A stretch of DNA of 64,000 nt from Immundisolibacter cernigliae (GTDB lineage Bacteria; Pseudomonadota; Gammaproteobacteria; Immundisolibacterales; Immundisolibacteraceae), in NCBI RefSeq assembly GCF_001697225.1, contig NZ_CP014671.1, forward strand, positions 1,364,001 to 1,428,000, in the 5' to 3' direction. Below the pieces are notes generated by a model that worked only from the letters and a program-made list of their open reading frames with translations, ran no database searches and was not told the DNA's origin. The translations under genes were made by a program, and so were the position numbers. Position 1 is the first letter of the stretch. Each line of letters starts with the position of its first letter. This document shows positions 8,998-37,540 of the stretch, piece by piece.

Positions 8998-11069
8998 TGG
9001 AGCAGACCGACGAAGATTTCTTCCACGACTTCCGACAGGAACTGTTGGCGGGCGCCGAAGCCAATGGCAGCTTCCAGCTTTCCGAATTCATGGAGGCCAT
9101 CGCGAACGACCTTGTCGAGACAGGGTTCACGGAAGGTTTTGAATTCTGCCATTTCCGGGCGCAGCGTGGCATGCGCGTGGACGGCTACTGGTTCAGTGAC
9201 GAAGGAGTTCTGGATCTCTTCATCGCGGACTTCGACTCCCGAAACGAGCTGGCATCGCTCACCAGAACGGAAGTGGCCGCGGCATTCAAGCGTGTTGCCA
9301 ACTTCTTCGAGGCCAGTGCCAACAAGGGCTTGGCCGGCGAACTGGAGGTCACATCGCCGGAGTACGGCCTTGCCAGGCAGATTGCGGATCGCAAGGACGC
9401 CATTCGGCAGGTCAACCTGGTTCTCTTCTCCGAGCGCACGCTCAGCGAGAAGATTCAGGCCCTTCCCGATACGGAAGTGGCAGGTGTTCCGGCTGCTCAC
9501 CACATCTGGGACATCTCACGACTTCATCGTCAACGAAGCTCCCGCAGCCACAAGGAGCCACTCGACCTCGACTTCGAGCAGATGTTCGGCAAGGGTATCG
9601 CATGCCTTCCCGCACACTTGGGGACCGACGCCTATCAATCCTATCTCATGGTCATGCCTGCCGAGGTGCTGGCGACCCTGTACGAGAGATTCGGAGCGCG
9701 TTTGCTTGAGCAGAACGTCCGAACATTCCTGCAGGCCCGCGGCAATGTGAACCAGGGAATAAGGGCAACGATCCTGAACGAGCCGGGAATGTTCTTTGCG
9801 TACAACAACGGGATCACGGCCACTGCGCAGAGTGTCGAGACCGCGACGACGGATTTCGGTCTGGCGATCACAAGGGTTGTCGACCTTCAAATCGTCAATG
9901 GGGGCCAGACCACGGCATCGCTGTTCCATACACGGAAGCGGGACAAGGCAGATCTTTCCCAGATATTCGTCCAGTTGAAGCTGTCTGTCATCGATAGCCA
10001 ACAGAGCGAAACGGTCGTTCCAAGGATATCGGAGTACGCGAACACCCAGAATCGGGTGAATGCCGCCGACTTCTTCTCGAACCACCCGTTCCATGTGCGG
10101 ATGGAAGGGTTTTCCCGGCGGATCTGGGCGCCGGCGCAGAAGGGCGCCCCGCGCGAGACGAGGTGGTTTTATGAGCGCGCACGCGGCCAGTATGCCGATG
10201 CACAGTCGAAGCTCACACCTGCGGAGCAGCGTCGATTCAAGGCGGAGCATCCCAAGCCACAGATGTTCACGAAGACGGACCTTGCGAAGTTCGAGAATGT
10301 CTGGGATGACCACCCCAAGTGGGTGAATCTTGGCTCCCAGAAGAACTTTGCGCGCTACGCCGCCCGAATCGGCAGCGAGTGGGAAAAATCTTCCGACGCG
10401 TTCAATGAGTTCTATTTCAAGAGGGCTGTCGCGCGCGGGCTGATCTTCCGCGCCACGGAGCGCATTGTTTCTGCGCAGCCTTGGTACAACGGCGGATACC
10501 GAGCAAATATCGTGGCCTACACGTTGGCGGTACTCGGTGACATCACGAAGCGCAGGAAGGAGAGCATCGACTTTCTGGGCATCTGGAATGCACAGAAGGT
10601 CGACCCAGTGCTCGAAAGTGCCATCGCTGTCGTGTCAGGGGTCGTGAACGACGCCATCATCCACCCGCCGCAAGGCGTTTCCAACATTTCCGAGTGGTGC
10701 AAGAAGGAGGCGTGCTGGACGAGGATACAGGCTCGTAGCGAAGCGATCGCCAATCTCCTACCGTCCGAGTTCTACGATCGACTTGTACCGCAGGATGATC
10801 AGGCAGCGATCGTGAAGGCTGCGAAGCAGACGCAGAGGATCGACAACGGCATCGAGGCGCAACGAAAAGTGCTGACCGTTCCCGCTGCGGAATGGGCTCG
10901 CATCCATCAGTCGTTGCTTGAGAAGGGTCTGCTCACGCCGAAGGAAGACGGCGTGCTCAGAGTTGCCATGCAGGGTCGCTCCAAGCTCCCGACAGAAAAG
11001 CAGAGTGTGGTGTTGCTGGAGATTCTCGACAAGGGGCGGCTGGAAGGCGTGGTTGTGAGTGATCCCTGA
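8997..11069 (+). CDS. AIPR-family (abortive infection phage resistance) protein
   Basis: About 690 residues; the ATG at 8997 follows GGAGG (8988-8992) and overlaps the previous stop by one base (TGATG). The AIPR signature IVNGGQTTASLFHTRKR lies near residue 300, preceded by FFAYNNGITATAQSVE and followed by the conserved NTQNRVNAADFFSNHPF. AIPR proteins have been linked to abortive phage infection and recur at the end of GHKL-Z1-nuclease operons. The molecular activity is not settled; a nuclease or effector role is inference. Confidence 0.9.
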   Translation: MEQTDEDFFHDFRQELLAGAEANGSFQLSEFMEAIANDLVETGFTEGFEFCHFRAQRGMRVDGYWFSDEGVLDLFIADFDSRNELASLTRTEVAAAFKRVANFFEASANKGLAGELEVTSPEYGLARQIADRKDAIRQVNLVLFSERTLSEKIQALPDTEVAGVPAAHHIWDISRLHRQRSSRSHKEPLDLDFEQMFGKGIACLPAHLGTDAYQSYLMVMPAEVLATLYERFGARLLEQNVRTFLQARGNVNQGIRATILNEPGMFFAYNNGITATAQSVETATTDFGLAITRVVDLQIVNGGQTTASLFHTRKRDKADLSQIFVQLKLSVIDSQQSETVVPRISEYANTQNRVNAADFFSNHPFHVRMEGFSRRIWAPAQKGAPRETRWFYERARGQYADAQSKLTPAEQRRFKAEHPKPQMFTKTDLAKFENVWDDHPKWVNLGSQKNFARYAARIGSEWEKSSDAFNEFYFKRAVARGLIFRATERIVSAQPWYNGGYRANIVAYTLAVLGDITKRRKESIDFLGIWNAQKVDPVLESAIAVVSGVVNDAIIHPPQGVSNISEWCKKEACWTRIQARSEAIANLLPSEFYDRLVPQDDQAAIVKAAKQTQRIDNGIEAQRKVLTVPAAEWARIHQSLLEKGLLTPKEDGVLRVAMQGRSKLPTEKQSVVLLEILDKGRLEGVVVSDP

Positions 11070-11234
11070 CCGAAGGATTGAAGAGTCCCTAATCCTGCGT
11101 GAAGCTACCCACAGCGATGTTTACTGCCAGCGCGAGCAGCATCAGCAGTGGTGCAGGGACGCCTGTAGCGCAAGATGGCCCACTTGGTTGGCCTATTCGA
11201 TCTCCGTTGGCACCATCTCACGGGGGAACTAAAA
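11070..11234. other. Spacer between the two defence cassettes
   Basis: No gene. An AGGATT/AATCCT inverted repeat (11074-11079, 11091-11096) right after the AIPR stop could be a weak terminator but lacks a T tract. The DUF3800 start at 11235 has a purine-rich GGGGGAACT ahead of it. No clear promoter or structured leader was recognised. Confidence 0.35.
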
Positions 11235-12290
11235 ATGGAGTGCTTCCGGATTGACGAGAGCGGCTACACAGGTTTCGATCTGCTAAACCCGGAACAACGC
11301 TTTCAAGGCGCCACGGCAATCGCGATCAGCGATGACGAAGCAGCACGCCTGATCCGAGAGCATTTCCCCAAACTGCAGGCGCCCGAACTCAAGTACCGGT
11401 CACTCGCGCGCCGCCCCAGCTACCGACAGCCACTCTTAGACCTGCAGCGCCTCGTGCTGTCCCGACATAAGTGTGTGACCTACGTCTGCGACAAGCGCTT
11501 CCTGCTGCTGTTGATGTTCCTGGATTACGCCGTCGAACCCTTCTACTACGAGCGCGGACTGGACGTCTATGAGGATGGCCAGAACTACTCGCTGGCTTCG
11601 CTGCTCTACACCGCCGGTCCAACCTTGCTTGGCAAGGAGGCATTCGAGGCCTTACTGATCGCTTTCCAGCGCGCAGTCAAGGAGAAAACCGAGGATGCCC
11701 TGCGTGAGCTTGTGTTGGCGGCCAGTCGCCTCAATTGGCGCGAGTTGCCCGAGGCTCTGGTGCCGCTGGTGCAGGCATCACCAGAATGTCTGTCTGCCAT
11801 CGCCACCCCTGGCGTCACGACCGATGCGGCGATCGTAGTGTTGCAGGCCCTAATCAGCCGGATGGAGCTGATGGCTGATGGAGCGTATCGGGTCGAACAT
11901 GACCAGTCGAAGAACCTGCTTGTCTATCACGACCTGCTCCAGCGCTACATCGACCACCAGCACGGGGTCGAGTTCAGGCAGACCCAGATCGCGAGCATCC
12001 AGTTCCCCCTCAAGCTGTCTTCCGTCAGTCAGGTCGACTCGAAGGCCAGTTCAGCGGTGCAGGTCGCCGACGTCATGATCGGCGCTGCCATTGAGGCCGC
12101 CAACGGACTGACGGGCCTGCGCCCGCCGTTGCTGGAGCCGCAGGCGGTGATGTCGCTGTATGCGGATGATCAGTTCATCCACTTGGTGCCGTCGATCGAC
12201 TTCACTGAGCAGAAAGAATTTCGGCAAGGCACGCAGGCGGCACAGATGATCGACTATTTCGCCAAGCACTTCGGCACGAAACCTTCGTGA
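11235..12290 (+). CDS. DUF3800-domain protein at the head of a Gabija-like cassette
   Basis: A 351-residue protein. The RNase H-like DUF3800 fold is suggested by an N-terminal FRIDESGYTG with a catalytic-type Asp, VEHDQSKNL in the middle and VDSKASSAVQVADVMIGA near the C terminus with a second acidic cluster. The ATG at 11235 is preferred over 11175 because a purine-rich site precedes it and homology begins there. It lies 37 bp upstream of the OLD-nuclease gene on the same strand, so it is probably a third member of that system. DUF3800 activity is generally unproven; a nuclease role is inferred. Confidence 0.8.
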   Translation: MECFRIDESGYTGFDLLNPEQRFQGATAIAISDDEAARLIREHFPKLQAPELKYRSLARRPSYRQPLLDLQRLVLSRHKCVTYVCDKRFLLLLMFLDYAVEPFYYERGLDVYEDGQNYSLASLLYTAGPTLLGKEAFEALLIAFQRAVKEKTEDALRELVLAASRLNWRELPEALVPLVQASPECLSAIATPGVTTDAAIVVLQALISRMELMADGAYRVEHDQSKNLLVYHDLLQRYIDHQHGVEFRQTQIASIQFPLKLSSVSQVDSKASSAVQVADVMIGAAIEAANGLTGLRPPLLEPQAVMSLYADDQFIHLVPSIDFTEQKEFRQGTQAAQMIDYFAKHFGTKPS

Positions 12291-15461: not shown

Positions 15462-16681
<1,220 letters not shown>

Positions 16682-21534: not shown

Positions 21535-22182
21535 CTACGGCACCGCGATGCGCTGCGTCTCGCCGTTCACCTGGAACACGCCCGCCTGCGCCTCGATGGA
21601 CTGCAGTTGCCAGTCGCCCTCGACATCGCCCTCGCGCAGCAGCCGGGCGCCCGCGAGCGAGGCCGCGGCGGTGGAGGTGATCGACAGAAAGCGCTCGCCT
21701 CCCCGCAGCTCCACGCCGAGCACCCGGAACGGCGGCTCCGGCACCTTGGGCTTCGTCGCAACCGGAGCACTCGGGCGAGCGGCTGATGCCATCTGCCGGG
21801 TCTTCTCCAGGCGGGTCTCGATTCCGTTCACGCGCGCCTGCAGCGTCTGCAGGTCGACGGCCAGGGCCCTCGTCTGGTCGGCCGCTTCGAGGCGCGTCAT
21901 CCGTTCGTCCAGCGCCTGCCGCGCGGTGGCGAATTCGGCCTGGCTGATCGGCGCCGGCCGGCGCTTGTCCGCATCGGTCTGTCGTTCGAGATCGGCCACG
22001 CGCAGGGCCAGCGCATTGACCTGCGCATCCTGTGCGCTGCCCTGGGTCTGCTCAGCGAGCCGCGACAGGCCGACGCTGTTGATGAGTGCCACGGCACTGA
22101 TGAGCAGCAGCCAGAAGGCCGCGGCGACCTTGAGCCAACGCGTGCGGGAATTGCGCTCGGATGGCGCCTGGGGAAAGGTCAT
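21535..22182 (-). CDS. Conserved ICE protein of unknown function, membrane-anchored coiled coil
   Basis: A 215-residue protein with one N-terminal transmembrane segment (about residues 18-38), a long coiled-coil-like region (about 45-140) and a C-terminal globular part (FRVLGVELRGGERFLSI). The domain order resembles inner-membrane pilus or secretion assembly proteins. I do not recognise a named family. It overlaps the PilL-N gene by four bases and belongs to the same operon. Confidence 0.7.
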   Translation of the reverse strand: MTFPQAPSERNSRTRWLKVAAAFWLLLISAVALINSVGLSRLAEQTQGSAQDAQVNALALRVADLERQTDADKRRPAPISQAEFATARQALDERMTRLEAADQTRALAVDLQTLQARVNGIETRLEKTRQMASAARPSAPVATKPKVPEPPFRVLGVELRGGERFLSITSTAAASLAGARLLREGDVEGDWQLQSIEAQAGVFQVNGETQRIAVP

Positions 22183-22727
22183 GGCTGCATCTCCTCGGGC
22201 CGGTCGACGTCCGGCACGGGCGTGGCGGCGCCGGGCGGGTTGGCGGAAAGGAAGGTGGGAGCACCGTGCCGGCTGAAGCAGACCTGGCGGGTGACGTCAT
22301 CCACCGACAGCTCCCAGGCGGGGCCGGCAAGGGTCAGCAAGGCATCGCACAGCATCAGCGGACCCAGGCGCAGGTGTGCGGCAGGCAGCGGCAGCGCGTA
22401 GAGCGTGGCGGCCTCGGGCGCATCGCAGAGCCGGTAGCCGGAGCGCAGTAACACGTGGCGCATGGCATCGCCCACGCTGGCATCGAGCATGGGCGGAATC
22501 GAGACCTCCACCGCCTGCTGCAAGAGATCACGCTGCGCGGGCTCCGGCACCAGCTCGACCAGCGTGTAGCGGCCGTAGCGGGCCACGGGTACCAGTCGCT
22601 GCTCCGAAGCTGGCTCGGCGGGCGGCGCTTCTATGTGGTCAGGGGTGGCCGGTGTCGTCGTGCAGCCGGACAGCAGGCCGCCAAGCACGGCGAAGATGCA
22701 GAGGAAACGAGGCAAAGACGGCGGCAT
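22179..22727 (-). CDS. PilL N-terminal domain lipoprotein (TIGR03748-type)
   Basis: A 182-residue lipoprotein: MPPSLPRFLCIFAVLG leads to a lipobox LLSGCTTT, so Cys about residue 21 should be acylated. The mature part has RYGRYTLVELVPEPAQRDLL, SVGDAMRHVLLRSGYRLC and PLAAHLRLGPLMLCDALLTL, the pattern of TIGR03748/PilL N-terminal proteins. It is the first gene of this transfer block. The start at 22727 is preferred over 22739 because the lipoprotein signal begins there. Confidence 0.85.
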   Translation of the reverse strand: MPPSLPRFLCIFAVLGGLLSGCTTTPATPDHIEAPPAEPASEQRLVPVARYGRYTLVELVPEPAQRDLLQQAVEVSIPPMLDASVGDAMRHVLLRSGYRLCDAPEAATLYALPLPAAHLRLGPLMLCDALLTLAGPAWELSVDDVTRQVCFSRHGAPTFLSANPPGAATPVPDVDRPEEMQP

Positions 22728-23040
22728 GTGGCACCCCACGGTGGCGGGATGCCTTCACCTTTGCAGAAACGTGCTGCGCGGGATGCCGGAAATCCGAAAC
22801 GCGCGGCGCCCCATTTCCCAAGGGAGGGGCACATATCAATCAGCCAGCATGACTGGCTCGCTGCTGGGCGGGAACTGCGACGATGGATCTATAGCGGCTG
22901 GAAAGTGCTGCCGGGGCTGGTAGCTCGGCGGGAGGCAGGGCAACGTTCTTTCTCACATAGACGGAAGACAGCTGTCATCGAATCATCGCCAAGAGGCCAA
23001 TGGCGACAACGACGCCAATGACGCCTGAAACAGCGAGAGC
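22728..23040. other. Junction between ICE core and metal-resistance insert
   Basis: No complete gene. On the minus strand 22975-23040 reads as the end of a membrane protein (GVIGVVVAIGLLAMIR, then stop), out of frame with the transporter upstream, so it is probably a remnant. A short hairpin AGCCAG/CTGGCT lies near 22840-22860. The left edge of the metal insert must lie in this interval, but no direct repeat marking it was found. Confidence 0.45.
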
Positions 23041-23658
23041 TCATGCGGTCGGCGGGGTCGATTCGGTGCGGGCCTGGCGGGCATCGCCGAGGATTTCGAC
23101 GGCTTCCTTGATCACGTACAGGCCGATCAGCGTGCCGATGAAGAAGTCGGGGTATGGCGAGCCGAGCCAGAGCACCAGGATGCCGGCGAGGATGACACCG
23201 AAGTTGGCCACGACGTCGGCGCGGGTGAACAGCCAGGTCGCGCGCAAATGTACTTCGCCCGACTTCAAGGGCGAGAGCATGCGCAGCACGGTCACGTTGA
23301 CCGCCAGCGACAGTAGCGCCGTGCCGATCATCCAGCCGCTGAGTGGCTCGGCGCCGTGGATCACTCGTCTGCCCACTTCCACCAGCACGCCGAGGCCCAA
23401 CACCAGCAGCACGCTGCCGCTCAGCCACGCGGCGTTGGCTTTGAAGCGGGTGGTCCGGCCGATGGCAATCAAGCCGATCGCATACGCGGTGGCGTCGGAC
23501 AGCATGTCCAGTGCATCGGCAAGCAGGCCCGTGGATTGCGCAATCCAACCGGCTATGCCGCCGATGATGGCCATCGCGGCATTGAGCGCTAATGCGATAC
23601 GCAGTACGCGCTGCTCCTGCGCGTTCTTCGCCTCGTGGTGGCAGCCGCAATCGCTCAT
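23041..23658 (-). CDS. Cation diffusion facilitator (CDF) transporter
   Basis: A 205-residue membrane protein with about six helices. Metal-site motifs are ADALDMLSDA in TM2 and TRADVVANFGVILAG in TM5. The N terminus has a Cys/His cluster (CGCHHE) that may bind metal. The usual cytoplasmic domain is absent, as in short CDFs of lead/zinc islands. It would export divalent metal by proton antiport. It is last in the minus-strand metal operon and touches the DUF3703 stop. Confidence 0.85.
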   Translation of the reverse strand: MSDCGCHHEAKNAQEQRVLRIALALNAAMAIIGGIAGWIAQSTGLLADALDMLSDATAYAIGLIAIGRTTRFKANAAWLSGSVLLVLGLGVLVEVGRRVIHGAEPLSGWMIGTALLSLAVNVTVLRMLSPLKSGEVHLRATWLFTRADVVANFGVILAGILVLWLGSPYPDFFIGTLIGLYVIKEAVEILGDARQARTESTPPTA

Positions 23659-24044
23659 CAAGTGTTCTCCAGATACGGGCGCAGTTCGGGAGAAATGGGC
23701 ATGATGCGCAGCGCGCCGACACGAGCCCCGCCCGTGTTGCCCCGGGGCATGCACAACCAGGTGAACAGCGCAGCGGCTAGCAGGCGTGGGACCTGGCCGA
23801 CCATCTCACGCCGATCACCAAAGCGGAGGCCCCAGCGCAGGAATGCCCAATGGCTGCGCACGTGGGCGTTCGTGCGCGACTGCGCCAGGACATGGGCTTG
23901 CTCGAACAACGTGTAGGCATGCTCGGCTTGGCCGGCATGGAGCGTGCGATATCCCTCGGCCAAGCGCCCGGCGAAAGCCCGCTTTCGGGCGTCGGCTGGC
24001 GTTGCGAACGGCCACAGCAATTGCGCGGCATAGCCGAGCGGCAT
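23658..24044 (-). CDS. DUF3703 protein
   Basis: About 128 residues from MPLGYAAQLLWPF; helical, with HVRSHWAFLRWGLRFGDRREMVGQ and a hydrophobic segment LLAAALFTWLCMPRGNTGG. DUF3703 proteins occur next to CDF transporters in metal-resistance clusters; their role is unknown. The frame is open further upstream, but only because a sterol-desaturase remnant abuts it. The start is therefore set at the first ATG of the DUF3703 part. Confidence 0.7.
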   Translation of the reverse strand: MPLGYAAQLLWPFATPADARKRAFAGRLAEGYRTLHAGQAEHAYTLFEQAHVLAQSRTNAHVRSHWAFLRWGLRFGDRREMVGQVPRLLAAALFTWLCMPRGNTGGARVGALRIMPISPELRPYLENT

Positions 24045-24062
24045 CGTTTCTTCGCGCAGACC

Positions 24063-24342
24063 CACGGCATCGGCCGGCCAGCAGCGCCAGATTGGCCAGG
24101 CCGTGCAGGACATCGGCGCGCAGGTCGCCGTGATCGCGCAGCCAGTCGCGCTCGTAGGGCTGCAGCCGTTCGAGCAGCGCGACGATGGCGATGCCCACCG
24201 CCGCTATCGCCGCCAGCGTGGGCCATGCCGGCAGCGCGCCGTACGCGACCGCACCGGCCGCACCGGCCGCACCGGCCGCGCCGACCGTTGGCAGCATCAC
24301 CGCAGGGTAGCTGCCGTATCGGATCCATTGGTCAAGTTGCAT
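24063..24342 (-). pseudogene. N-terminal remnant of a sterol desaturase-family gene
   Basis: From MQLDQWIRYGSYPAVM the frame encodes a hydrophobic stretch and LERLQPYERDWLRDHGDL, then DVLHGLANLALLAG, typical of the start of sterol desaturase/fatty acid hydroxylase proteins in metal islands. After about 93 residues the similarity stops and the DNA passes into DUF3703. The His-rich catalytic part is missing, so the gene is dead. AAGGA precedes the ATG. Confidence 0.6.
24245..24283. repeat. Short 9-bp tandem repeat inside the desaturase remnant
   Basis: Three to four head-to-tail copies of CACCGGCCG encode a GAAGAAGAA run in the remnant. Simple-sequence expansion of this kind is tolerated in a non-functional gene. 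Confidence 0.6.
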
Positions 24343-24343
24343 G

Positions 24344-24821
24344 TCAGGTTCCTTCTCGAACATTGCACCGTTTCGCGCCTGCGTCACGCGGGATCGCGTC
24401 GGGCGTCGCATGCCAGTCGCGCCATGCGCCTGTCAGCACGTGCGTGGCCGTCTGCAGGAACAGCACGGCGATCAGCGCGCCGATGACGAGATCCGGCCAG
24501 GCGCTGTCGAGCCAGGCGACTAGGCCGGCCGCGACGATCACGCCGGGGTCATTGACCAGATCGTTTGAGGAAGACTGCGCCACTGCGCTGGCGCAGGCTC
24601 CCGCCGATGACCCACAGACTCAGGGCGTACACCAGCGCGTCACCGAGGCTGTCGAGCGAGTCGGCCTGCAATGCACTCGAATCGGCCCACCAACCCGCGC
24701 CGAACTCGCCGGCAAACAGCAGCACATTGATCGCTAGCACGATCCACAGCACCCGGCGACGGGCGTTGTCGCTGTTCCGGCTCAGCGATGTGGCTGTGTG
24801 ATCGCAGTTGCATCCGCTCAT
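24344..24821 (-). pseudogene. CDF transporter gene with internal deletion
   Basis: The N-terminal part (24821 down to about 24570) reads MSGCNCDHTATSL and includes ADSSALQADSLDSLGDA, a CDF metal site. It then leaves frame after SLWVIGGSLRQRSG. The C-terminal part (about 24583-24344) continues in another frame from NDLVNDPGVIVAAGLVAWL to the end. The two parts cover about 155 residues, whereas the intact neighbour has 205, so about 50 residues including a helix pair are lost along with the frame. Confidence 0.75.
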
Positions 24822-24832
24822 GCTCGGCTCCC

Positions 24833-26797
24833 TTATTTCAACTTCGTTGGCTTGACCGCATGCGCCAGCACCTGCGCAGAGCGCGTGTTGACGATGAAGC
24901 AGACGATCGCCACCGTCGCCACTAACAATTGCGCCAGCAACGATTGCCAAGACGGATAGACACCGAGCCACTCGATACGCGGCACGGCGATCAACGCTTG
25001 TGGCACCCAGCCGGCCTCCTGCAGCGCCGCCACGCCCTTGCCGACCAGCACCACCGCCAGCACGGCGATCAGGATCGAACTGACCGAAAAGAAGCGGCTG
25101 ATCGGGAGGCGCCTGCTTATGCGCAGCAGCCAGTACGCCACACCAGCCAGTACCACGATGCCCGCCACCAGACCCGCCACGATTGCGGTAGCGGCGGCGG
25201 GACTCCACATCGCGATATAGAACAGCATGGTCTCGAAGACCTCGCGATAGACCGCGACGAAGGCCAGCAGGAACAGGAAGATCGCCGAGCGACGCGTCAG
25301 TGCCGCCGACACCCTGGCGTGCAGGTACTGCTGCCAGCGCCCCGCCAGGCTCTTGCCGTGCATCCAGATGCCCACGCTGAGCAGCACCGCGGCGGCGAAC
25401 AGCCCCGACACACCCTCGGTGACCTCGCGGTTGGCGCCGCTGATGTCGACCAGATAAGTCGCCACCGCCCAGGTCGCGGCACCAGCCAGCAGGGCGACCA
25501 CCCAGCCGGCATGCACGTAGGGCAGCACTTCCTGGCGTTCGGCCTTGCGCAGGAACGCGATCATGCCGATCACGATCAGCAGCGCTTCCAGACCCTCGCG
25601 CAGCAGGATGGTGAAGCTTCCGAGGAAGGCCGTCACGGGATCCGTGTGCGTGGCCTGCAGCACGGCCTCGGCACGATCGAACAACGCGGTGACCACCTCG
25701 GCTTGCGCCGACACCGCGGCGGCCGGTTCACGGCGCCCGATCTGCGCGCGGAACTGGGCCATCGCCGTTTCCAGCTCGCGCAGCAGGGGAGCATCGCGCG
25801 TGGCCAACGTGGGCTCGACGGGCTCGATGCCATCCAGATATGCCGACAGTGCCAGCGACTGCGCCCCTGCCGCATCGCCGGAGATGTAGGCGCGCAGACT
25901 GACGGCCAGGCGCTGCCGCGCCAGTGCCAGGGGCGCCGCGGCTTGGCCAGACGCCTCCGTGATCGCCTGCGGTTGCGATCGCACATATGCCAACAACTCC
26001 CGGGCTTGCGTGGCGCCCACCGTTCGGGCCAACTCGGCTTCGCGGGTGCGGGTGAGCACCTCCGGCGTCGGGATCTGGTCGCGCAGTTGGGCGTTTTGCC
26101 GCCACCGCGTCTCTCCGGCGCGGCGAATTTGGGGCGAATACGCCATGCCGCCGACATAGAAAGCGAGTGCCCAGCGGTCGGCTTCGGACAACTGCGGAAA
26201 CCCCGCCATGGCCGTGCCAGCGACTCCCTGTGAGATCACCTCGTACAGGGCCAGTGGTGTGCGCTGCGCGGCGCGGTCGGCGTCGGTGAATGCGATCGGC
26301 GGCGGGTCGAGGCCGGCGGCCGCTGGACCATCGCCGTGCCCCGTTGAGCCGTGGCAGGCCGCGCATTGTTGGGCATACAGGGGAGCCGCTCGGGCCGGGC
26401 TGGGTGGCGAGGCCGGTACCGCGCCGATCGGGTAATTCGCAAGCAGACCGTCGGCCAGTTGGCGGGCGAGCGACGCGACCTGCGCGGGCTCGGCCTTGGC
26501 GGCGATCGCCGCACCCAGCCGGTCGGCCTCTGCCTGCAGCACCGGCTGTTCCGGCGTAACCGGCAGTGCCGCCAACTGGGACCGCACCGCGGTGGCGAAC
26601 TCCTGCATCTCGGCGTATTCGCCGGCGTCGGCGATCCGGCCAGCCTGCACCGCGCCGGCATAGTCCACTGCGATGTAGTCGAGCATCTGCCAGGTTTGGC
26701 GCGGGTCCGCCGCCGCAGGCTCGGCCGCGCCCGCTGGCGCCAGCCCCGAGAGGATGGAGAACAGGCAAAAACGCATCAGGGCAGCGAGCCACGGCAT
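24833..26797 (-). CDS. pbrT: Cytochrome c-FTR1 fusion permease, PbrT-like
   Basis: A 654-residue protein. A signal peptide (FCLFSILSGLAPAGAA) leads to a periplasmic cytochrome c-like domain with heme motif CAACHG (near residue 143) and a possible Met ligand in GTAMAGFPQL. The C-terminal half is an FTR1-type permease with seven helices and both family motifs, REGLEAL (near residue 390) and REVFETM. PbrT homologues import Pb(II) or iron. The divergent MerR regulator and CDF neighbours support a lead-resistance (pbr-type) role. Confidence 0.85.
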   Translation of the reverse strand: MPWLAALMRFCLFSILSGLAPAGAAEPAAADPRQTWQMLDYIAVDYAGAVQAGRIADAGEYAEMQEFATAVRSQLAALPVTPEQPVLQAEADRLGAAIAAKAEPAQVASLARQLADGLLANYPIGAVPASPPSPARAAPLYAQQCAACHGSTGHGDGPAAAGLDPPPIAFTDADRAAQRTPLALYEVISQGVAGTAMAGFPQLSEADRWALAFYVGGMAYSPQIRRAGETRWRQNAQLRDQIPTPEVLTRTREAELARTVGATQARELLAYVRSQPQAITEASGQAAAPLALARQRLAVSLRAYISGDAAGAQSLALSAYLDGIEPVEPTLATRDAPLLRELETAMAQFRAQIGRREPAAAVSAQAEVVTALFDRAEAVLQATHTDPVTAFLGSFTILLREGLEALLIVIGMIAFLRKAERQEVLPYVHAGWVVALLAGAATWAVATYLVDISGANREVTEGVSGLFAAAVLLSVGIWMHGKSLAGRWQQYLHARVSAALTRRSAIFLFLLAFVAVYREVFETMLFYIAMWSPAAATAIVAGLVAGIVVLAGVAYWLLRISRRLPISRFFSVSSILIAVLAVVLVGKGVAALQEAGWVPQALIAVPRIEWLGVYPSWQSLLAQLLVATVAIVCFIVNTRSAQVLAHAVKPTKLK

Positions 26798-26841
26798 ACA
26801 GACGACATCCGGAAAGACCGGTTTGCACCGACGAAAATGTC

Positions 26842-26872
26842 AGCGTAACGTCCGTAGCAGCTACAGAGTCAA
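26842..26872 (-). promoter_or_regulatory. MerR-type promoter/operator of the pbrT-like operon
   Basis: On the minus strand, -35 TTGACT (26872-26867) and -10-like TACGCT (26847-26842) are 19 bp apart, the overlong spacing that MerR-family activators correct. A dyad CTGTAGC/GCTACGG fills the spacer. The start TTGACTCT resembles the known pbr promoter. The regulator's Shine-Dalgarno sequence (AAGGGG, 26871-26876) touches the -35 box. Confidence 0.75.
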
Positions 26873-26882
26873 GGGGATGCGA

Positions 26883-27314
26883 ATGAAAATCAGTGACGCG
26901 GCAGCCGCGAGCGGCTGCCACTTGGAAACCATTCGTTACTACGAGCGCGTCGGGCTCATGCCGCGACCGGCGCGCACGGCCAGCGGCTATCGGGCCTACA
27001 GCCCGACCGACGTCGATCGCCTGCACTTCATCAGCCGCGGCCGCAATCTAGGGTTCAGCCTCGAGGAAATCCGCAGCCTGCTGCGCTTGGACGACGATCC
27101 GTCGATGAGCTGCAGCGATGTGGATGCGATCGCGCGCAGCCATCTGTCCGATATTCAGTGCCGCGTCACGGAGTTGCAGCGCATGGCGGCGGAACTGGAA
27201 CGGGTCATCGCCCAATGCGCCGGCGGCGAACGCGGTACCTGCACGATCCTGGGGGCTCTGAAGCAGAGCGGCGGTGAGAGATCGGGTTGCAGCGGTCCGG
27301 GGGCCTGCGCATGA
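26883..27314 (+). CDS. MerR-family metal regulator, PbrR/CadR-like
   Basis: A 143-residue regulator. The winged HTH has [18 protein letters not shown]. The metal site is suggested by Cys in [11 protein letters not shown] (near residue 78) and by [10 protein letters not shown] (near residues 113 and 121), the three-cysteine pattern of PbrR/CadR proteins. The C terminus is Cys-rich ([10 protein letters not shown]). The ATG at 26883 is chosen over 26877 because AAGGGG is seven bases upstream of it. The stop overlaps the next ORF by four bases. Confidence 0.88.
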
Positions 27315-27405
27315 CGATCGCGCAATGTCTGGAGGCCGCCACCCGAGTGAACACTCAGCGCAGCTATGCCTCCGCGCTGCGGCATTTCAAGGTCGAATGG
27401 GGGCG
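27311..27405 (+). pseudogene. 5' stub of a tyrosine recombinase (integrase) gene
   Basis: [20 protein letters not shown] followed by [11 protein letters not shown] resembles the SAM-like N-terminal domain of phage-type integrases. Similarity stops at about residue 31 and the frame enters intron-derived DNA. The ATG overlaps the MerR stop (ATGA), an arrangement suggesting the integrase travelled with the metal genes. The catalytic domain is absent. Confidence 0.65.
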
Positions 27406-27533
27406 GTCACTTGCCAGCAGCGCCGGACAGCGTTCTGCCTTCGGCTTCCTTCAGATTTCACCTCGCGGTGAACACCCTTGCCGGGTGAGTAGAGGACTTT
27501 CACCTCCGGGTGAGTGCGCCCTGCCGGGCGTAC
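27406..27533 (-). mobile_element. 5' fragment of a group II intron (class C-like domain I)
   Basis: On the minus strand from 27533 the sequence starts GTACGCCCGGC (consensus GUGYG) with a GCCCGGCAGGGC hairpin. The diagnostic GAGGTGAAAGTCCTCTAC follows, then TGAAATCTGAAGGAAGCCG and AAGGCAGAACGCTGTCC, the order seen in domain I of bacterial group II introns. It begins six bases after a terminator-like hairpin, the favoured target of class C introns. It is cut at about 27405 by the metal insert. The reverse transcriptase and domain V are missing. Confidence 0.65.
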
Positions 27534-27539
27534 GAACGA

Positions 27540-27555
27540 AAAGCCCGCGGGCTTT
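27540..27555 (-). terminator. Terminator-like palindrome downstream of the helicase gene
   Basis: AAAGCCC/GGGCTTT with a two-base centre, followed on the minus strand by TCGTTC. It is the second of two hairpins after the helicase stop and probably served as the intron's landing site. Confidence 0.6.
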
Positions 27556-27561
27556 GCTGAA

Positions 27562-27589
27562 GAAAGAAGCGGCCCCCGGAAGGGCCGCC
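27562..27589 (-). terminator. Rho-independent terminator of the helicase transcript
   Basis: GCGGCCC/GGGCCGC stem (27589-27570 on the minus strand) followed by TTCTTTCTT, starting 14 bases after the helicase stop codon. A classical hairpin plus T-rich tract. Confidence 0.8.
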
Positions 27590-27603: not shown

Positions 27604-29874
27604 TCAATGCACCAACTGCCGGGCCAGTGCCACCTCCACCGAGTCGCCGTCCTGGTTCAGGATATCGAGTCCGGATTCGGGCACGTCGCCCGATGTGCTC
27701 TGCGACACCATGATCTTCTTGGCCATCAACCCCAGGCAGGTCATCTGCGAGGAGTTGGCATAGCCGAGGTAGACCACGCGCACCGGCTGCTTCTGGCCGA
27801 TGCGCCATGAGCGCCGGGCGGCCTGCTGCAACGAATACACGTTATAGCCCGACTGGAGGAACACGATGGTCGGGAACTCCAACAGGTCCAGGCCGGTTTT
27901 CACCAGCTCGGGATTGGTGATGAGCACGTCGATGCCACGGTCCAACTGCTCGGCGATCCAGTCCTCACGGCGGGAGGCATCCACGCTCGCGCGCAGCACC
28001 GCCACCTTGAAGCCTTCCTGCTCCAGCAGCACCTTCAAACGCGACGTGGTGTCGCGCGTGCCGGTGTAGACCGAATAGACCAGGGTCTTGCGACCTTCTG
28101 CCTTCTCCTGCCGGCAGATCTCGATCAGCTCGCGCTCCTTGGGCATCACCTCCAGCTCGTTGAACTGAGCCGGCACGAACGCCAAGGTGTTGCGCGTGCG
28201 CGGATGCACCACCGTTTCCGACCGGAAGCAGCAGTCCGGCCAGGCCAGCAGCACGTTGAGGACCACACCGAGCAGCGTCGTGTCGCGCTTCGCCAGGGCC
28301 TGCTTCAGCTCCTGGGTCAGGCGACCCGCCAGATCGCGGTAGGCCGCAGCTTGCGCCGCGTCCATCGCGACTTCGCGGAACTCCTCGTCGTAGGGCGGCA
28401 GCACGTTGCCGCCGATGTCCTTCAACTTGAGGAAGACCGTGAACGGCAGGACGCAGCGCAGCACGCCCTTCGGGCCGAAGCCCGGCGCCTTGACCGTGCG
28501 CACCGATACCTTGGTGCCCCTGGCCGTCTTGTGCGCCGTGCCGGTGCTCTCGGAGTAGATGTCCTTGAGCACGCCGTGATCGCGCATGAACGCCATCGCG
28601 GCCGAGGTCATGCTGCCGCTCTTGGTCGGCCGGTATCCGTCTTCGATCATCCGCCCCGGCAGGGCTCGGAACAGCAGGTGGAACAGGTCGTCGCCGTACC
28701 CGCCCATCAAGGTGCCGGTCAGCAGCAGCGTCTTGCGTACCTTCGAGGCCAGCACGCCCATCGCTTGTCCCTGGGCGGAACCCGCGTTTTTGTACTCGTG
28801 CGCCTCGTCGGCGATGAGCAGGTCGAACGTGCCTTGCGGCAGATAGCGTTTGACGTACTCCGAAGGCTGGTAGCCGCCTTCTCCGAAGCCGAACTCCATG
28901 TTGGCCATCGCACGTTCCATGCGATGGGCTTGCCGGTCCGAGAAGACCAGCTCGCCATTGCCGTCCATCAGGTTGATGAACTCGTGGATGTTGTCCCCGA
29001 GCATCGACGCGAGGAAGGCGTCGCCGAACTTCTGCATCAGCTTCTGCGCGGTGACTTCGCCGATGGTGGGAATACGCTTCAGGGCCTTGAGCACGGCCGA
29101 GGACTGGTCGCTGGCGGACAGCCCCCTGGGACGAATCAGCGTCCACAGTGCGGAGGCGCAGCGGCCGCACTTGCGGCGGGTTTCCTCCGCTTCGAGTTCG
29201 ATGGGATTGATCGGCTCGCCGTCGAGATCGGTGATGACGGTCCCGCAATGCGGGCACGCCCCCACGTCACCGTGACGGGTGCGATGCTGCGCGAACACCG
29301 GCTTCCAGTGAAAACCCATGCGCATGCGCACACGCCCGAGGACGAAGAACTCCTGGCCCTGGGGCGGAACACCCAACTGCTCGCGCAGCTTGATGAGCTT
29401 GACCAGGGTGTCCGGGCCGTTGAGCACCCAGACCTTGGCGCCGGCCACCGTCTCCTGGATTTCGCGCCGCCACTTGTAGACCAGGTGGGGTGGCGAGAGG
29501 ACCAGGGTACGGCGATAGCCTTCGGCGTTGAGCACGGCGGCCGTGGCGATGCCGACGGTCGTTTTGCCGCAGCCCATCTCGCCATTGACGACGGCGCTAC
29601 GTTCCCCGCGATCGACCAACAGCGCGGTGACGGCATGGACCACTTCGGCCTGGGCGGGAAACAACTGCCGCTTCAGGCCGGCCAGGATGACCTGGCGATG
29701 CGGCCGCGGTTGGCCGGTGTAGACCGGCGGGTTGGCGCGGTTGAGGGAATCGAGCAACTCGTCGCCGAACTGCGAAACGAAGTCCTGCAGGCTGATCGTA
29801 AGAGGAGAAGCAGCCGCTTCGGGCAGATCGCCGTGCGCGGCGGTATCGGGAACAGTATCGAGATCGAGGGACAT
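27604..29874 (-). CDS. SNF2-like DEAD/DEAH helicase of the ICE
   Basis: About 756 residues from [19 protein letters not shown] lies eight bases upstream of the ATG at 29874, so longer in-frame starts are rejected. Motif I is [11 protein letters not shown] (near residue 95), motif [13 protein letters not shown], motif [12 protein letters not shown], and motifs [24 protein letters not shown] Cys cluster (CPHC...CGRC, near residues 210-245) may bind zinc. Such helicases are conserved in this ICE family and probably act in DNA processing or replication of the element. Confidence 0.88.
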
Positions 29875-29891
29875 GGTGATGCTCCTGAGAA

Positions 29892-29946
29892 ACCGGGGCA
29901 TGCACCTCCCCCGATGGGGCGGTGACATGCCCCAGGGGTGGGAAGA
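29892..29946 (-). promoter_or_regulatory. CCACCC-hairpin leader (helicase gene)
   Basis: Minus strand: TTCTTCCCACCCC, then outer arms GGGGCATG/CATGCCCC enclosing an inner GCCCC/GGGGG hairpin, then the CAGGAG ribosome-binding site. It is a copy of the recurrent ICE leader. Confidence 0.6.
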
Positions 29947-34066: not shown

Positions 34067-34135
34067 CAGCTTGGTGGCATCGCCATCGAGAGCCGATGGC
34101 CGTTCGCGCATGGATGCCGGTGCGAACTGGAGTGA

Positions 34136-34287
34136 TCAACGCGGTCGGAACCGCGTCGCAGCCTTGAAGATCGTGGCTGCCTGGGCATGTCGCTGACGGA
34201 CGTCAGCGGAACATGGCCGGAAGCGTGGCGCCAGGGCGGCGCACATGCGAGCGGCAATCGGCACGCGCGGCCGTCCGCATTGCCGGG
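34136..34287 (-). repeat. Three-hairpin intergenic element, copy A
   Basis: About 150 bp between the DUF3085 terminator and the DUF3577 leader. On the minus strand it has hairpins CGCTGAC/GTCAGCG, GCAGCC/GGCTGC and CGCGGT/ACCGCG, with GACATGCCCAGGC between the first two. It is paralogous to copies at 35,653 and 37,386 with base changes that keep pairing. Confidence 0.7.
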
Positions 34288-35573: not shown

Positions 35574-35622
35574 CAACCAAGGGACCCCCCGCAAGGGAGG
35601 TCGGTCCCTTGAGGGTGGATGG
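35574..35622 (-). promoter_or_regulatory. CCACCC-hairpin leader (265-residue gene)
   Basis: Minus strand: a GGACGC/GCGTCC hairpin, ATCCACCCT, then CAAGGGACC pairing perfectly with GGTCCCTTG, followed by AAGGAG. Confidence 0.7.
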
Positions 35623-35652
35623 ACGCGGCATGCGTCCGGCGAAGGAAACGAC

Positions 35653-35797
35653 CAGCACGGCGAACCGCGCCGCAGTCTCGAAGGTCTCGACCGCCTGGGC
35701 ATGCTGCCGGCAACGCCAGCGAACATGCGGCCAGCGTGCGGCACATGGCGGCGGCCGTCCGCCGGGAATCGGCAATGCGCCGGCACCGCGTTCCGCG
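35653..35797 (-). repeat. Three-hairpin intergenic element, copy B
   Basis: Minus strand: GCTGGC/GCCGGC, AGCATGCCCAGGC, then GCGGTC pairing with GACTGC through one G-U, then GCGCGG-TTCG-CCGTGC. It lies between the terminator-like hairpin at 35,798 and the leader at 35,622, the same order as copies A and C. Confidence 0.7.
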
Positions 35798-37327: not shown

Positions 37328-37385
37328 GTGCATCGTCGCCAGGCCGACGAACGTCCGCGGTAGGCGATGCGAAGCGGACTGGATC

Positions 37386-37540
37386 GGTCAGCACGGCGAA
37401 CCGCGCTGCAGTCTTGAAGACCGAGACTGCCAGGGCATGCCGCTGACGACTGTCAGCAACGCATGGCGTGAGGATGGGCGCGAAGCATGGCTGCCGTCGC
37501 AGGGGAAACCGAATCGCGGACGGCCCGCTTAAGGGCAATG
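37386..37540 (-). repeat. Three-hairpin intergenic element, copy C
   Basis: Minus strand: GCTGAC/GTCAGC, GGCATGCCCTGGC, GCAGTCT/AGACTGC, then CGG-TTCG-CCG within CAGC/GCTG arms. The second stem pairs T-A where copy A has C-G, a compensatory change. It lies upstream of the leader at 37,327. Confidence 0.72.

Follow-up and report, generated by a model that had tools for sequence, protein, structure and literature searches.

In this study, we analyzed a stretch of 64,000 nucleotides from Immundisolibacter cernigliae (contig NZ_CP014671.1, positions 1,364,001 to 1,428,000; hereafter the window), in which 106 bases on the minus strand (27428-27533) are, judged by their sequence, a decayed remnant of a group IIC (class C group II) intron without standing as a working member of that class. 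The remnant lies in a cargo slot of an integrative and conjugative element (ICE) and very probably descends from a class C intron that retrohomed into this slot and was later fused by a deletion to a Tn3-family transposon. With this, the stretch is explained at base resolution and the decay of one ICE cargo slot can be traced in part. An earlier note on this DNA had assigned 27406-27555 to the intron. The intron does lie within this span, but 27406-27427 (about 22 nt) belongs to an integrase gene and 27534-27555 (22 nt) is ICE hairpin DNA, which is shared with the intron-free ICE relatives L016 and L019. The features around the remnant are as follows.

27568-27589, minus strand: strong intrinsic terminator of the ICE helicase gene, upstream of the next hairpin
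27540-27555, minus strand: hairpin AAAGCCCGCGGGCTTT, directly upstream of the intron
27428-27533, minus strand: 5' remnant of a group IIC intron, identified by Rfam, by blastn against complete introns and by our own covariance model
27475-27483, minus strand: CGGCAAGGG, a single copy at the site of an internal deletion, present in two copies in intact relatives
27428-27433: ACGCTG / CAGCGT, a 6-bp microhomology at the junction of intron and integrase
27311-27433, plus strand: 5' stub of the tyrosine recombinase (integrase) gene of a Tn3-family transposon, about 42 codons, frameshifted

A search of the whole window against all of Rfam revealed a single group II match, RF02001 (group-II-D1D4-3), at 27472-27402 on the minus strand with 38.8 bits compared to a gathering score of 32 (E-value 2.4e-4). 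The end of this match at 27402 was discarded, since its last part aligns only via 99 skipped model positions and the DNA there is integrase gene. Sub-threshold matches to sbrA, suhB, FMN, and CRISPR-DR28 were discarded as chance. The two domain I (D1) motifs on which the group II assignment had originally been based, GGTGAAAGTCC and GAAGGAAGCCG, are both located on the minus strand. A covariance model of our own, built from eight relatives including the ICE loci L054 and L064, scores the remnant with 43 bits (E-value 7e-10, 1.46 Mb searched). In blastn comparisons, the 5' half (27534-27475) matches a complete intron on a Paraburkholderia plasmid (L002) at 95% identity over 60 nt, and the 3' half (27483-27425) matches a complete intron on a Pantoea plasmid (L003) at 95% identity over 59 nt.

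A third complete copy is located on the Pseudomonas putida plasmid pKF715B (L004). The introns L002 and L003 each carry a reverse transcriptase (RT) gene and domain V (D5), and D5 is also present in L004. Compared with reference proteins, the RT encoded by the nearest complete relative reaches 480 bits with the GsI-IIC RT, 350 with the RT of 7uim, and 131 with LtrA, and the only Pfam domains found in it are RVT_1 and GIIM, whereby an endonuclease domain is absent. The proposal of a class C remnant thus holds: the nearest relative has a IIC-type RT, longer forms exist in relatives, complete with RT and D5, and the window copy represents a 5' end only. It resembles L002, L003, and L004 in its 5' end sequence, in the D1 motifs and in its position just past a terminator-type hairpin. 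In contrast to these introns, it comprises only 106 nt, is devoid of the RT, of D2-D6, and of the greater part of D1, and begins with GTACG at the 5' splice site, where the relatives read GTGCG; it thereby departs from the class C rule GUGYG.

The remnant corresponds to the first ~130 nt of the intron less an internal deletion of 24 nt. In the intact relatives L003 and L054, CGGCAAGGG occurs twice as 9-bp direct repeats 24 nt apart, and in L002 and L004 the second repeat copy begins AGGCAAGGG. The window contains one copy, and the stretch between the repeats is lost. Relatives in the genomes G401 (139 compared to 115 bases) and G395 (125 compared to 101) are exactly 24 bases longer than the window across this site. 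The simplest reading of the loss would be slippage between the 9-bp repeats.

Only the initial part of D1 is left. For domains V/VI, no RF00029 match was obtained in the window with Rfam, no second copy of the intron piece was found elsewhere in the genome, and a genome search with the L002 RT, which lacked a positive control for this genome, revealed no RT. Since nothing beyond the beginning of D1 is preserved and neither an RT nor a second copy was found, the remnant is dead. With most of D1 and D2-D6 missing and the 5' splice site altered, it can neither splice nor move and is best regarded as an inert scar. It might be argued that the fragment has been retained as a functional small RNA or attenuator derived from domain I, for its UUCACCGCGAGGUGAA hairpin is paired at all positions. 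However, the fragment occurs as a single copy, its shortened form is absent from 80 related ICE loci, the 24-nt deletion falls within D1, and a location behind a strong terminator lets low transcription be expected; we consider such a function extremely improbable. Truncated group II introns are common in mobile DNA. Searches of 369 genomes from the class and 398 from the phylum revealed no near-identical full intron covering most of the fragment (best piece 92% over 59 nt), and phage records gave no match. Genome G377 (C1:3719695-3719944) harbors two intron 5'-end pieces (L104 and L111) on the same strand about 35 nt apart, in a tandem-like arrangement.

The 5' border of the intron is G27533. 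It lies six bases beyond the hairpin at 27540-27555, just as the earlier note had stated, and 9 nt past the GC stem of this hairpin, from which TTTTCGTTC follows. At the border, the window reads TCGTTC followed directly by GTACGCCCGGCAGGGCGCAC, whereas the intron-free ICE relatives L016 (Dyella) and L019 (Acidovorax) continue from the same hairpin with CCGTTC followed by CTTGTCCCGCAG. Class C introns integrate downstream of terminators (PMC4424553, PMC3522654). Most of the relatives for which the 5' flank was read start ~9-10 nt past the stem of a hairpin that is G+C-rich and carries a T run, and the window copy has the same spacing, with a weak T run; the introns L094 and L006 have upstream hairpins without a good T run.

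The ICE was assigned to the PFGI-1 class by its markers PilL2 and TraD, which match TIGR03748 and TIGR03754 over the cut-offs. The cargo slot and its content are delimited by the following features.

27604-29928, minus strand: SNF2/DEAD-type helicase gene of the ICE, upstream border of the slot
22179-22739, minus strand: pilL2 of the ICE (TIGR03748), downstream border of the slot
22831-27433: metal module filling the slot; ICE homology resumes at 22830
26880-27314, plus strand: MerR-family metal regulator, transposon cargo
24833-26797, minus strand: PbrT-like FTR1/cytochrome c permease, transposon cargo

The slot was surveyed in 80 relatives of the helicase (ICE loci). The gap between helicase gene and pilL2 is ~250 bp or less in many of them and reaches up to 6.3 kb in others, and because of this variation we regard the interval as a cargo slot. 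The cargo is also varied, since L013 and L019 hold, downstream of the helicase gene, a helix-turn-helix (excisionase-like) gene and then a further gene, without a pilL2 match in the locus. Our covariance model detected introns in two of the 80 loci, L054 and L064, in addition to the window. The scores of these two are not independent, because both are part of the model, but the absence from the other 78 is informative. Thus, at least three ICEs have received a group II intron in the helicase-pilL2 slot. In L064, the intron spans ~10198 to 12050 with an intact open reading frame for a 456-aa RT, followed by pilL2, and its D5 match of 36.9 is just under the gathering score of 40. In L054, ~295 nt of intron behind the first terminator are followed by a heavy-metal sensor kinase gene and a CzcB/IhpAB-type efflux cluster, so that the cut at about nt 295 borders a czc-type cluster. 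Both loci agree with the window in having a group II intron behind a terminator in this slot. They differ from it in that their introns are inserted at the first terminator and that of the window at the second hairpin, and in that L064 keeps RT and D5 and belongs to a divergent lineage. The presence of introns in other ICEs is thus supported for the slot, but not for the nucleotide.

At the 3' end, intron homology stops at 27428, and the homology of the integrase gene to a Xanthomonas transposon reaches exactly to 27433. The base past ACGCTG matches the integrase and differs from the introns, and the join was therefore placed within ACGCTG at 27428-27433. Here, intron nucleotide ~130 meets the recombinase gene at codon ~42, and the reading frame of this gene is already broken before the cut. 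The gene order FTR1/PbrT, MerR, integrase is that of the Tn3-family transposon of Xanthomonas plasmid pLMG930.1 (L099; FTR1, cation transporter, MerR, integrase, tnpA), the shared parts of which are 70-80% identical to the window at the DNA level. In L099, the integrase gene is followed by tnpA; in the window, tnpA is gone and the integrase gene breaks off after its first ~42 codons. As no DNA match to the L099 tnpA was found anywhere in the genome, the module is a remnant as well. The intron is truncated at the metal module and the integrase stub, as the earlier note had proposed; the stub is, however, the recombinase gene of the Tn3-family transposon and not a separate island integrase.

Since intron and integrase stub are directly joined, the intron piece could have arrived together with the metal transposon instead of by insertion into the ICE. 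However, it is the 5' end of the intron and not a broken end that abuts the ICE hairpin, at exactly the starting point of class C introns, the same ICE slot is occupied by introns in L054 and L064, and no intron lies beside the integrase gene or tnpA of the related transposon L099. We therefore regard carriage by the transposon as very unlikely. Truncation during copying-in, i.e., aborted retrohoming, would likewise yield a partial intron. In retrohoming, cDNA synthesis begins at the intron 3' end, which aborted copies therefore retain. The remnant has instead preserved the 5' end, and its break sits in a microhomology with another element, which makes an aborted insertion highly improbable.

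From the observed homologies, borders, missing parts, repeats, and empty and filled slots of relatives, we infer the number, size, and order of the events behind the favored reading, insertion of the intron into the ICE and later deletion. A class C group II intron would have retrohomed behind the double hairpin after the helicase gene, in the helicase-pilL2 slot. Before or after this, a Tn3-family transposon with lead-type cargo (FTR1/PbrT, CDF transporter, MerR regulator, tyrosine recombinase, tnpA) would have entered the same slot. One deletion, probably of several kilobases, would then have joined intron nt ~130 to recombinase codon ~42 via the 6-bp microhomology and taken the rest of the intron together with tnpA, and a separate deletion of 24 nt between the 9-bp direct repeats would have shortened the leftover D1 piece. 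The order terminator, intron, metal island that had been read from this arrangement does not follow from it: both insertions precede the junction deletion, which shows only that both elements were present beforehand, having arrived in either order. That the transposon inserted into the intron itself is unsupported, because blastn comparison with complete introns revealed no intron sequence on the far side of the metal module.

Several observations weigh against this reading. In none of the other ICEs was an intron found at the very nucleotide where it starts in the window. The hairpin at 27540-27555 has at most four T in a row and was missed by the terminator scan. No inverted repeats or target duplication of the transposon were identified when its ends were viewed by eye. 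Finally, the nearest relatives differ between the two halves of the fragment (L002 for the 5' half, L003 for the 3' half), and the parent intron may thus have been a mosaic.

Intron stubs adjoin heavy-metal cargo both in the window and in L054. That the helicase terminator constitutes a recurrent class C landing site, whereby intron DNA may act as a junction for cargo exchange in the slot, seems to us improbable; otherwise, the history is one of ordinary mobile-element decay.

Regarding the cargo, the PbrT-like FTR1/cytochrome c protein and the MerR-family regulator would suggest that the module handles lead, whereby the regulator scores below every curated metal-specific cut-off. Next to an intact cation-efflux (CDF) gene at 23041-23754, a second CDF gene at 24344-25208 on the minus strand appears to be split across two frames (open reading frames 24549-25208 and 24344-24583) and is probably a pseudogene. 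Elsewhere in the ICE, three radC RNA motifs (RF01754) occur within 3.4 kb on the minus strand (34077-34225, 35585-35737, and 37330-37475), and two or three of these motifs are also present in the ICE loci L016, L019, and L064. An ALIL pseudoknot (RF01497, 119 bits), an IS3-type frameshifting element, adjoins the ICE transfer genes at 16287-16403 on the minus strand.
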